45,270 bases of DNA. It comes from an uncultured Erysipelotrichaceae bacterium. Lineage in GTDB: Bacteria; Bacillota_I; Bacilli_A; RFN20; CAG-826. Shown here piece by piece: positions 41,967 through 45,169 of this stretch (position 1 is its first letter; every line of letters begins with the position of its first letter). The DNA lies in the NCBI GenBank assembly GCA_902802905.1, contig CADCNT010000004.1, positions 77,073-122,342 on the forward strand. The letters run 5' to 3'. The position numbers and the translations under genes were made by a program. The notes below the pieces were generated by a model, which did no database searches, was not told the DNA's origin, and saw only the letters and a program-made list of their open reading frames with translations.

Positions 41967-42989
41967 TTATCCTAAGATTGCGGAGTCACTCATCGCATCA
42001 TCTTTTGATGCAACTTGGAACATGTTAAGTAAATGCTCCACAGTGAGTTTCTTTTTTTCTTCTCCAGAAACATCCACGACCACTTTTCCTCTACTCATCA
42101 TGATGAGACGATTTCCATATCTAATAGCGTCTTTCATATTATGAGTAATCATGATTGTGGTTAATTGATGTTCATCAACGATCTTTTCGGTGATTTCTAA
42201 GACTTTAGATGCAGTCTTTGGATCAAGCGCAGCGGTATGTTCATCAAGCAAGAGAATTTGCTTGGTTAGGTCATATTCGGAAATGGCTTTTTCATAGGCA
42301 GTGTTAATCTTTTCAAGTTCTACTTGTCTTTCTGCCTTGCTAAGACCTTTTTGTTTTAATTCCTTTATAGAATCCTTCTTTGCTTTTTTGGCTTCTAAGA
42401 ATGCCAAATTGACGGCTTCTTTTGCGTGTGCTTTATCGGTTTCGCAGAATCTTACATAATCACGCTTAATGACTTTTTCACTTGGTCTTTGGCGCATTGT
42501 CGCCATTAAAAGGGTAATTGCTTGACGTTGTCCGCCAGAAAGTAGACCCACTTTTTCATTTAGACGATTCTCTAAGCCTAAATCTAATGATTTGACTTGT
42601 TGAGTGAAATAGTCCATGTCTTTTCTTTGAAGGAACCATTTGAAGATTGTTCTTGGTCGACCTCTGCCATAGGCAATAGTGAGGTTTTCAATAATCGACA
42701 TATCCGCGCATGTACCACTCATTGGGTCTTGGAAGACTCTACCAAAATATGGAGCGCGTTTATGTTCGTTAACAAATGACATATCAACGTCATTTAAAAG
42801 GATTAATCCAGAATCAGCTTCCACACTGCCTGCGATGATGTTAAGTAAGGTTGATTTACCCGCTCCATTACCACCGATAACCGTGACAAAGTCACCTGGT
42901 TTGATTTGTAAATTAAGATGATTAATCGCAATAGTTTCACTTGGGGTGCCTTTATTAAAATATTTAACAATGTTTTTTAGTTCTAACAT
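41967..42989 (-). CDS. TrpZ-type amino-acid ABC ATPase with an internal insertion
   Basis: 340 aa, against about 255-265 for the family. Walker A GGNGAGKST (39-47), Q-loop in VFQDPMSGTCADMSI, signature LSGGQ (150-154), Walker B ILLLDE (245-250) followed by HTAALDPKTA, and switch His in MITHNM. Signature and Walker B are normally about 20 residues apart; here about 95. The extra 75 residues (about 167-242) are Lys/Glu-rich and helical. It powers the permease encoded just upstream, its start lying 5 nt past the permease stop with a GGGGAGG ribosome site. Last gene of a binding protein-permease-ATPase operon. Confidence 0.92.
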   Translation of the reverse strand: MLELKNIVKYFNKGTPSETIAINHLNLQIKPGDFVTVIGGNGAGKSTLLNIIAGSVEADSGLILLNDVDMSFVNEHKRAPYFGRVFQDPMSGTCADMSIIENLTIAYGRGRPRTIFKWFLQRKDMDYFTQQVKSLDLGLENRLNEKVGLLSGGQRQAITLLMATMRQRPSEKVIKRDYVRFCETDKAHAKEAVNLAFLEAKKAKKDSIKELKQKGLSKAERQVELEKINTAYEKAISEYDLTKQILLLDEHTAALDPKTASKVLEITEKIVDEHQLTTIMITHNMKDAIRYGNRLIMMSRGKVVVDVSGEEKKKLTVEHLLNMFQVASKDDAMSDSAILG

Positions 42990-42994
42990 TTTAA

Positions 42995-43912
42995 CTATCC
43001 TCCCCTCTTCATCTTTTGATTATCGTGGAACTTTTGTATACGCGCTATATAGGTGCGCCTTATGTAAGGTATACCTAAGAATATCGCCACTACTACAGCG
43101 GTTAAAAGTTTCATCAAGTTAGCTTCAAGTCCGAAGAAGATGACGCTTTGATAAATGAAGAAATAGATAATTGATCCCACGATAACAGATGATAATCTAA
43201 CAGCGAAGTTTTTCGCAAACTTAGAGAATATAAGTCCACCAATAACGACGGCAGATAAGCAAATAACAATCGCCCCACGGCCCATATTAATATCAGCAAA
43301 GCCTTGATATTGAGCAAGCATCGCTCCAGATAGAGCCACGATGCCATTAGATAAAGCAAGGGCTAAAACTACATTAAACTTCGTGTTAATGCCGTGTGCT
43401 TTAGACATTTTAGAGTTATTGCCAGTCGCTCTAATAGAACAGCCTAATTGTGTTCCAAAGAACCAATATAGGACACCAATTAAGATAGCAGCGATTAAGG
43501 CTACTTTCCATAAGGTATCATAGACATTTATCTGCGAGAACATCACATCAAAGTTTCTAACGGAAATAGAAATATTACTTCTATTAGAAGAAATGATGAG
43601 ATTGACACTCCATAACGCTAGTTGCGTCAATATACCTGAAAGAATAGGCGGTATGCCAAGCAAAGCATATAATAAACCAGTGATTAATCCACATAGTAAG
43701 CCCGCTACAAAGCCAAGCAGCATACCAAGTAGATAATGTCCTCCGTTAGTGACCACTACTGCAAAAACAAAAGCGCCAGTAACAAAAGAACCATCAACAG
43801 TTAAATCTGGTATGTCTAAGATTTTAAAAGTAATGTAGACACCAATACCAGCAATGCACCAAATAAACGCTAAGTTAAGGGCACCTGGTATCGTATTAAG
43901 ATAATCTAACAT
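42995..43912 (-). CDS. TrpY-type amino-acid ABC permease
   Basis: 305 aa, about eight to nine hydrophobic segments with the branched-chain/BPD_transp_2 type pattern: DIPDLTVDGSFVTGAFVF near the start, AKAHGIN-like SKAHGINTKFNVV in the coupling region, and MGRGAIVICLSAVVIGG. That is the usual partner of TrpX-type binding proteins. A basic C-terminus (RIQKFHDNQKMKRGG) faces the cytoplasm. The ATG is 2 nt after the binding-protein stop with no clear ribosome site, so translation is probably coupled. Confidence 0.92.
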   Translation of the reverse strand: MLDYLNTIPGALNLAFIWCIAGIGVYITFKILDIPDLTVDGSFVTGAFVFAVVVTNGGHYLLGMLLGFVAGLLCGLITGLLYALLGIPPILSGILTQLALWSVNLIISSNRSNISISVRNFDVMFSQINVYDTLWKVALIAAILIGVLYWFFGTQLGCSIRATGNNSKMSKAHGINTKFNVVLALALSNGIVALSGAMLAQYQGFADINMGRGAIVICLSAVVIGGLIFSKFAKNFAVRLSSVIVGSIIYFFIYQSVIFFGLEANLMKLLTAVVVAIFLGIPYIRRTYIARIQKFHDNQKMKRGG

Positions 43913-43914
43913 GA

Positions 43915-44859
43915 TTAAAGAGCTTGGTATCCTTCTGGAATAGCGCTAGGAGAAATGCCTAACGCTGCTAAAACATCGGTGTTGTAGTAACCAGTTAAAT
44001 CTTCATCGTATCTAATTGGTAATTCGGATGGTTTTTTACCATTAAGTAAAATTTCCACAGCCATTTCACCAGTAATTTCACCTAAATGATAGTAATCAAT
44101 ACTTAAGGTAGCTAAGCCACATTTACGGCAGATACCTTCTTCACCAGCGATAACTGGAAGTTTACCGCTACAAATAGAGTTAATACTCTCAGCGTTGTCC
44201 GCGCAGGTGTTGTCTGTAGGGATATATAAAGCATCTAAAGAATTGACTTTTGCTGATAAATTAAGAATTAATTCGTTAGTGTCTGCAAATGTGATTACTT
44301 GAATATCTGCATCACGTTTAATCTTTAAGATTTCTTTACTAATCATCTCTGATTGATATTGAGAATTAGATTCATTAGTGCAATATAAGATACCGATTTT
44401 GCTAGCGTCAGGTACCCAGTCAAAAATCATTTTTGCTTGTTTTGCTAAGTCCGCTAAATCGGATGTACCAGTGACATTAGATGGAATTTTCCCGCCAAAA
44501 GCACCTTCATAAGTGGTAACAGACGTACCCACTACTGGGATGGTGGTTGTCGCATTAGCGGCTAAGATAACTGATGGAGTAGCATTGCCCATAATCAAGT
44601 CTTTGCCTTTAGAAACAAAGGTATTAATGGCAGCAGACCCCGCAGATGATTCCCCTTGTGCATCTTTTACTTCAAAGCTCACAGTTTTACTACCAATGCC
44701 TTCTTTGAATGCTTTCTTAAATCCATTAGTGGCTTTGGTTAATGCTTCAATTGGCACCCATTGAAGAATACCAATGTTGAAGTCGGCTTTCTTACTACAT
44801 CCAGTTAAACTAGAGACCATAAGTGGGAATAGAGCGAATAAGAATAGTTTCTTTTTCAT
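43915..44859 (-). CDS. TrpX-type amino-acid binding lipoprotein (probably tyrosine)
   Basis: 314 aa from the ATG at 44859, which has AAAGGAG well placed; the in-frame ATG at 44895 lies in the attenuator terminator. Lipobox LTGCSKK. The rest is the ABC_sub_bind (TrpX) family: NIGILQWVPIEALTKATNGF, QGESSAGSAAINTFV, GTSVTTYEGAFGG, KIGILYCTNESNSQYQ and ALYIPTDNTCADN. Known members bind tryptophan or tyrosine. The leader peptide upstream is rich in Tyr and has no Trp codon, so I infer tyrosine (perhaps also Phe). Confidence 0.9.
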   Translation of the reverse strand: MKKKLFLFALFPLMVSSLTGCSKKADFNIGILQWVPIEALTKATNGFKKAFKEGIGSKTVSFEVKDAQGESSAGSAAINTFVSKGKDLIMGNATPSVILAANATTTIPVVGTSVTTYEGAFGGKIPSNVTGTSDLADLAKQAKMIFDWVPDASKIGILYCTNESNSQYQSEMISKEILKIKRDADIQVITFADTNELILNLSAKVNSLDALYIPTDNTCADNAESINSICSGKLPVIAGEEGICRKCGLATLSIDYYHLGEITGEMAVEILLNGKKPSELPIRYDEDLTGYYNTDVLAALGISPSAIPEGYQAL

Positions 44860-44881
44860 AGTTTTCTCTCCTTTTAGAAAT

Positions 44882-44996
44882 AAAAATCGGTGCATTCAAG
44901 CACCTAACTTACTCTAATATTGGCGGTGCTTGATTAAGATTTAAGTAATCAATACACCACTAGCGAAAAAGCCAAGATCTATTGATTACCCCTTGG
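44882..44996 (-). promoter_or_regulatory. Five-segment transcription attenuator of the TrpXYZ-type operon
   Basis: Segments in order of transcription: 1 GTAATCAATA (44989-44980), 2 GGTGTATTGATTAC (44958-44945), 3 TAATCAAGCACC (44936-44925), 4 GGTGCTTGA (44904-44896), 5 GCACC (44893-44889) followed by GATTTTTATTT. Perfect pairings: 1:2 over 10 bp; 2:3 over 7 plus 4 bp; 3:4 over 9 bp; 4:5 over 5 bp as terminator. Neighbouring pairings exclude each other. Segment 1 overlaps the leader peptide stop. CCAAG/CTTGG (44996-44992, 44976-44972) could add a pseudoknot. Confidence 0.72.
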
Positions 44997-45035
44997 ATAA
45001 TAATAACTAAAGTAGAAATAATACTTCTTGCTCAT
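44979..45035 (-). CDS. Tyrosine-rich leader peptide
   Basis: An 18-codon frame from the ATG at 45035 to the TAG at 44981-44979: MSKKYYFYFSYYYPRGNQ. It has six Tyr and two Phe in nine consecutive codons (residues 5-13, with one Ser). Such runs are the mark of ribosome-mediated attenuation leaders (compare the Phe-rich pheA leader). A weak AAGAAAAAG purine stretch precedes it. It lies about 120 nt upstream of the binding-protein gene and just before paired RNA segments ending in a terminator. Tyr shortage would stall ribosomes on this run and change the folding downstream. Confidence 0.72.
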   Translation of the reverse strand: MSKKYYFYFSYYYPRGNQ

Positions 45036-45169
45036 AACTTTTTCTTGTGAAATAAGATAACACTAAATACATACGCCTAACAATATTTTTTTGTAAACAA
45101 TAATAAATAAAAAGGAAACTTAAATTGGTGTTCACTCATGTAGCAACAATAAAATAAAGTTAAAAAGGC
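45036..45169 (-). promoter_or_regulatory. Upstream region of the amino-acid transporter operon; promoter unresolved
   Basis: AT-rich, no gene seen. TTTACA at 45097-45092 is the best -35-like box, but no good -10 lies at normal spacing (TATGTA at 19 nt is the nearest). The promoter must lie here if the leader is transcribed on its own. Confidence 0.3.

Follow-up and report, generated by a model that had tools for sequence, protein, structure and literature searches.

Organization of the locus

The window, by which we mean the whole stretch of 45,270 nucleotides that was analyzed, comes from a 1.54-Mb draft genome, where it lies at one end of contig 4. It carries a three-gene ABC importer, with a PF04392 gene first, preceded by a short Tyr/Phe-rich reading frame and a chain of alternative RNA pairings that ends in a terminator. 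The features are as follows, with the evidence for each in brackets.

45038-45046, minus strand: possible weak ribosome-binding site of the leader frame, AAGAAAAAG (suggested by the sequence)
45035-44979 including TAG, minus strand: leader peptide frame, MSKKYYFYFSYYYPRGNQ (sequence, shuffles, aromatic run kept in 75 homologous leaders)
44992-44996, minus strand: 5' arm (CCAAG) of the hairpin around segment 1 (98% of cells paired in 30 relatives)
44980-44990, minus strand: segment 1, GGTAATCAATA, overlapping the stop codon (pairing, covariation, folding scan)
44972-44976, minus strand: 3' arm (CTTGG) of the hairpin around segment 1 (pairing, kept in relatives)
44944-44960, minus strand: segment 2, GTGGTGTATTGATTACT, partner of 1 or 3 (pairing, comparison, folding scan)
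44923-44936, minus strand: segment 3, TAATCAAGCACCGC, partner of 2 or 4 (pairing, comparison, folding scan)
44896-44904, minus strand: segment 4, GGTGCTTGA, partner of 3 (antiterminator) or 5 (terminator) (pairing, comparison, terminator call, folding scan)
44889-44893, minus strand: segment 5 (GCACC), 3' arm of the terminator (pairing, terminator call, folding scan)
44878-44887, minus strand: U-rich tail of the terminator, ATTTTTATTT (terminator call; position shared with 74 of 75 leaders)
44866-44875, minus strand: ribosome-binding site of the importer gene, AAAAGGAGAG (sequence)
43915-44859, minus strand: substrate-binding lipoprotein, PF04392, with Tyr-type pocket residues E241 and Y257 (domain match, alignment)
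42995-43912, minus strand: ABC permease, PF02653 (domain match)
41967-42989, minus strand: ABC ATPase, PF00005 (domain match)

The leader frame has 18 codons (ATG at 45035-45033, TAG at 44981-44979). Tyr occupies codons 5, 6, 8, 11, 12, and 13, and Phe codons 7 and 9; the initial annotation, made from the letters of the sequence, had described six Tyr and two Phe within codons 5-13, and this was confirmed on the minus strand. When the 330 nt upstream of the importer gene were shuffled with preservation of dinucleotides, an ATG frame with at least eight Tyr/Phe per nine codons arose in 2 of 20,000 shuffles. A sigma-70-like promoter was looked for on the minus strand of the leader region, and none was called. 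The contig ends approximately 235 nt upstream of the leader start codon. The last ~115 bases of the contig (window 45155-45270) have a copy with 96% identity at the end of contig 9 in this genome, and the repeat is the probable reason that the assembly stops so close to the upstream side of the leader.

Downstream of the start codon, the RNA can form four successive pairings. Pairing 1:2 (44990-44980 with 44954-44944) has 11 bp with one G-U at the outer end, and 2:3 (44960-44946 with 44936-44923) has 14 bp, interrupted by one bulged A and including some G-U pairs. Pairing 3:4 (44933-44925 with 44904-44896) consists of 9 perfect bp, and 4:5 (44904-44900 with 44893-44889) of 5 perfect bp closing a loop of 6 and followed by GATTTTTATTT. 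Neighboring pairings of the chain are mutually exclusive. All four had been described as perfect; they are all present, but 2:3 with its bulge and G-U pairs is not perfect, and 1:2 contains the one G-U. The 4:5 hairpin (44904-44889 plus the U tail), correctly singled out as a terminator, is the sole terminator-like site of the region, and its end lies 29 nt from the PF04392 gene. The TAG of the leader frame overlaps the 3' end of segment 1. There are at least the five segments originally proposed, and a sixth element had been overlooked: CCAAG (44996-44992) pairs with CTTGG (44976-44972), and segment 1 is caged in the loop of the resulting hairpin. This hairpin is conserved in relatives and is lengthened in most of them by TAGCTA:TAGCTA.

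Conservation of the leader

Binding-protein homologues were taken from 224 genomes of the same family, and their upstream DNA was scanned for short frames; many of these genomes are probably metagenome assemblies, and related sequences were each counted separately. A Tyr/Phe-rich ATG frame was found upstream of 75 homologous importer loci. Together these leaders hold 400 Tyr, 212 Phe, and 2 Trp codons (means of 5.3, 2.8, and 0.03). At least seven Tyr/Phe per nine codons in an ATG frame were seen in 71 of the 75 upstream regions, versus 5 of 7,500 dinucleotide shuffles (0.07%). The leader peptides are widely divergent (e.g., MKFSKYYFYFSYFYPRGNQ, MKKFAYFYYYYFR, MNRNINLISSSKSYFYFGYFYFR, and MRRSTGFYYYYYYYR), and the aromatic run is never missing. 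A short conserved frame ahead of a terminator is also the anatomy of an arrest peptide, and the nascent chain could respond, as TnaC or Erm peptides do, to free tyrosine or a drug instead of to tRNA charging. However, the peptides have no common motif outside the aromatic run, and the runs differ in order and length, which fits codon counting and not a specific nascent chain. We consider arrest very improbable.

The distance from the leader stop codon to the gene is nearly always 105-140 nt, and 74 of the 75 leaders have a terminator 20-40 nt before the gene. The pairing chain was tested without an alignment by searching backwards from the terminator 5' arm to its partner, from there to the partner of that segment, and then once more. 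All three of 1:2, 2:3, and 3:4 reached -8 kcal/mol or lower in 53% of leaders, versus 2% when the intervening sequence was shuffled. In 84% of leaders, the region around the stop codon is part of segment 1; the earlier placement of the stop codon in this segment is supported. A MAFFT alignment of all leaders was not meaningful; covariation was therefore counted on the 30 close leaders only. For 1:2 and 3:4 together, 26 two-sided changes were observed versus 9.6 in shuffles, and none of 500 shuffles was as high. The terminator-state pairings (2:3, 4:5, and the cage) are conserved in these 30 relatives, mostly with G-U changes, and their covariation is not above shuffles. The initial annotation had named a conserved Tyr-rich frame and compensatory base changes in related leaders as the check on its proposal, and the family provides both.

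A chance origin in AT-rich intergenic DNA, where hairpins are frequent and Tyr/Phe codons arise readily from U-rich sequence, was also weighed. The codons TAT, TTT, and TAC are AT-rich, and the whole genome of the window organism holds about 20 six-codon Tyr/Phe runs, although no second convincing leader was seen among those elsewhere in the genome. Chance is ruled out by the shuffles, the identical placement in 75 loci, the pairing test, and the covariation, and we regard its probability as negligible. Among approximately 75 comparable Clostridia homologues, moreover, only one (L068) has a comparable frame at that place.

Two other families of the order also have the leader (L187, with eight consecutive Tyr, and L188). 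L068 itself comes from a Bacillota genome that does not belong to the family; its importer is preceded by a similar leader with Tyr and Phe, MKLNRFIANGFYYYFYFESNGCLCCS, and a terminator. A covariance model of the leader recovered one copy per genome, always ahead of the importer, and this search of the genomes found no second operon under the same control.

Ribosome position and computed folding

The RNA covered by a ribosome was removed from each leader, and the remainder was folded. A first test with truncated transcripts was biased because longer free RNA always offers extra partners, and a shuffle-controlled version was therefore used. For a ribosome that had reached the stop codon, the mean terminator probability was 0.85, compared with 0.575 when the middle Tyr codon was in the A site; for shuffled leaders, the same two positions gave 0.875 versus 0.855. 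In the masking test, 2 of 74 leaders switched in the wrong direction. The ribosome-free state is intermediate, with a mean terminator probability of 0.72 (0.59 in the 27 most responsive leaders). For roughly half of the leaders, equilibrium folding favors the terminator at any ribosome position, and co-transcriptional kinetics must therefore contribute there.

In the leader of the window, 1:2 and 3:4 dominate when the first free base lies at approximately codons 9-17, with a terminator probability of at most 0.07. Assuming that the ribosome covers 13 nt on the 3' side of its A site, this antiterminator interval corresponds to an A site on codons 5 to about 12, with codon 13 at the edge (0.53). 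With the first free base at codon 18.7 to 24.7, as for a ribosome at the stop codon, the terminator dominates (~0.9). RNA that is free only from segment 3 onward returns to the antiterminator, and RNA that is free only from segment 4 onward again forms the terminator. The terminator probability thus changes between high and low with every segment that the free 5' end passes, which is the odd/even alternation of his-type attenuators. Folding with segment 1 masked or free had been suggested at the outset; the terminator dominates in the former case and the antiterminator in the latter, so that the scan reproduces the originally proposed logic of Tyr plenty and Tyr scarcity.

The computed switch also bears on the idea that the frame encodes a functional small membrane peptide and that the hairpin simply terminates transcription, with a fixed level of readthrough. 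Short aromatic peptides can insert in membranes, and the terminator is stable in many members of the family. However, what is conserved is the aromatic codons, the pairing chain, and the place of the stop codon, whereas the peptide sequence diverges, and the switch exceeds that of shuffled leaders. A membrane peptide is thus very unlikely.

The mechanism that we propose is one of ribosome-mediated attenuation. When charged tRNA-Tyr is plentiful, the ribosome would reach the UAG and hide segment 1, allowing 2:3 to form; segment 4 would then be free to form 4:5, and transcription would end ahead of the importer. When charged tRNA-Tyr (or tRNA-Phe) is scarce, the ribosome would stall at codons 5-13. 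A ribosome on the Tyr codons would cover the 5' side of the cage hairpin, breaking the cage and releasing segment 1; 1:2 would form, segment 3 would pair with 4, and RNA polymerase would read into the importer genes. With no ribosome, the cage may hold segment 1 and favor 2:3 and 4:5, and hence termination, a third state that is supported only in part.

Substrate of the importer

By sequence, the nearest solved relative of the window binding protein is CD0873 of C. difficile (E 5e-37), which binds tyrosine as shown by crystallography and thermal shift (PMC6816091). Glu-263 of CD0873 contacts the tyrosine hydroxyl and is replaced by Ala in Phe-binding and Trp-binding relatives, and Tyr-279 is replaced by Gln in the Trp binder (PMC6816091). 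In the alignment, both residues are present in the window protein, as E241 and Y257 (counted in the translation of 43915-44862); Phe-binding VC_1101 and Trp-binding SP1069 both have Ala at the Glu-263 position. Across the family, Glu or Asp occupies this position in all 73 leader-bearing proteins with sequence, and it does so in those of the two other families as well. All six homologues with Ala there have no leader, and one of these, from a neighboring family, has a T-box instead. The association of leader and acidic residue (75 of 75, versus none of the six Ala-type proteins with a leader) has a Fisher p of 2e-5, a value uncorrected for relatedness. A TrpX tryptophan importer (NF041285) was rejected: the protein scores 167 bits versus an equivalog cut-off of 390 and has Glu and Tyr instead of Ala and Gln. 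The earlier label of a TrpXYZ-type importer therefore holds at the level of the superfamily only. The assignment of tyrosine as the substrate, also made there, is supported by E241 and Y257, and the Tyr-type pocket matches the regulatory amino acid of the leader; we infer that the importer most likely carries tyrosine.

The same attenuator could instead be a general aromatic (Phe and Tyr) or mainly Phe sensor, serving an importer of several aromatic amino acids. Phe codons are present in all but two of the 75 leaders, and the common pathway that leads to Phe is likewise missing from the organism. However, Tyr outnumbers Phe by about 2:1, Trp is almost absent from the runs, and in its pocket residues the binding protein agrees with Tyr-specific CD0873 and not with VC_1101 or SP1069. 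A broader sensor is possible, at well below even odds.

Our preferred reading is a his-type ribosome-mediated transcription attenuator, specific for Tyr and probably also for Phe, that controls a tyrosine ABC importer; we give it a probability of roughly 0.88. Four defining features of a ribosome-mediated attenuator were found, namely a codon-run frame, an intrinsic terminator, an antiterminator that is decided by the ribosome in the computed folds, and a match between the codons and the predicted substrate. The attenuator reading implies that the frame is translated, that ribosomes stall in it, that transcription actually terminates or reads through accordingly, that expression would increase with uncharged cognate tRNA, and that the cell would take up tyrosine by this route. 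It would also assign tyrosine as an importer substrate in organisms that are known mainly from sequence.

Against this reading, some family members with a Tyr-type pocket have no leader. They include a clade of one genus (L028-L031, L034, L035, L042, and L043) with Tyr-type binding proteins and no Tyr leader. The members of this clade share another conserved 5' region, for which an Rfam scan in L028, L029, L031, and L035 gave no match. In L042 and L043, together with L249 and L250 (all of one genus), the binding protein belongs to the same family and is circularly permuted: a single frame of 343-358 aa, still with a lipoprotein-type start, matches the window protein first at residues 152-315 and then at 23-146. 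In the window ATPase (41967-42989, minus strand), approximately 74 additional residues (170-243), highly charged, separate the LSGGQ signature from Walker B. These are kept in the full-length L044 and L054 and are absent from nearly all Clostridia homologues that were checked.

Comparison with known attenuators

Attenuation by leader peptides is a textbook means of controlling amino-acid biosynthesis in Proteobacteria; Bacilli and Clostridia mostly use T-boxes. In E. coli, pheA and pheST have leader peptides with Phe codons that control attenuation, as proposed for the window; unlike the window, they use four segments, control biosynthesis or synthetase genes, and respond to Phe only. The initial annotation had compared its five segments with this four-segment trp/phe scheme. 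More than four segments are already known, however: the enterobacterial his leader has six, with AB/CD/EF forming in termination and BC/DE in readthrough, and its termination rises without translation (PMC10989985). Like the window leader, hisL has a run of regulatory codons and the same even/odd segment logic (PMC10989985). It differs in its amino acid (His, not Tyr/Phe), its target (biosynthesis, not import), and its sequences. With the caging hairpin counted as a sixth element, the chain of the window is equivalent to the six-segment his leader, except that segment 1 (his segment B) sits in the loop of the first hairpin and not in its arm.

The closest published motif that we found is uORFC-13-1 before aroF of Acholeplasma (PMC8632094). 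It is also a short frame with a Phe codon ahead of a terminator, is concerned with aromatic amino acids, and belongs to a Bacilli-related bacterium; it differs in controlling DAHP synthase and in having at least one Phe codon versus a long Tyr/Phe run, and, compared by description, no multi-segment chain is reported for it (PMC8632094). Leader-peptide attenuation in Bacilli has experimental support in Listeria Rli60 and Staphylococcus ilvD (PMC5864092, PMC5794164), although these concern branched-chain amino acids and biosynthesis operons, and Rli60 has four segments. Comparative genomics has predicted His leaders in Firmicutes, including Erysipelotrichales, with codon runs and terminator/antiterminator hairpins (PMC9413887); these precede the His operon and have 3-5 His codons. 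T-boxes, which the initial annotation had called usual in Bacilli, are thus not the sole option there, since branched-chain attenuators are known and His ones predicted.

What is new here is the Tyr/Phe specificity, the importer as target, and the lineage-wide use in Bacilli; the logic and architecture of the attenuator are familiar. The open-access literature, to which our search was confined, yielded neither a Tyr leader nor such an attenuator before an amino-acid importer. The leaders would thus form an undescribed attenuator family across an order of uncultured gut Bacilli, and they offer a natural series for the study of multi-segment attenuators.

Aromatic auxotrophy and T-boxes

The presence of the leader also follows need: chorismate synthase is absent from the window genome and from 17 of the 19 members of the genus, and most genus members cannot make aromatic amino acids. 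Both members that have the enzyme lack the importer, and no comparable leader was found near their chorismate synthase gene. The genomes of the genus without the importer are G005, G006, G007, G015, and G017, and include these two. Since chorismate synthase occurs only in members without the importer, an exchange of import for synthesis is suggested.

At the leader of the window, Rfam returned no leader family at E values up to 5 (His_leader included) and no RF00230 (T-box) match, in agreement with the absence of a T-box motif noted initially. A T-box or other known riboswitch at this place was rejected on these grounds, though T-boxes occur elsewhere in the same genome: one match above the cut-off precedes valS, and a weaker one below the cut-off precedes alaS (names from our reading of the downstream proteins). 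The use of leader-peptide control here is thus not due to a missing T-box device. A broader reading is that the leaders are an independently evolved, lineage-wide class of attenuators for Tyr/Phe import in aromatic-auxotrophic gut Bacilli, taking the place that T-boxes have at related importers, with a caging hairpin through which a lack of translation would also lead to termination, giving three ribosome states; we would put this at even odds.

T-box-controlled TrpX importers, as in Streptococcus suis (PMC9382623) and L189, share with the window the transporter superfamily, a terminator, and a link to amino-acid supply. They differ in that the RNA reads the tRNA directly, with no leader peptide, and in responding to Trp, not Tyr (PMC9382623). 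Across the homologues, the specificity residue of the binding protein changes in step with the regulator. In a neighboring family (L189, L247), the homologous importer gene has a T-box upstream and encodes a binding protein with Ala at the Tyr-specificity position; the specifier of this T-box, read by hand from the alignment, appears to be UGG (Trp).
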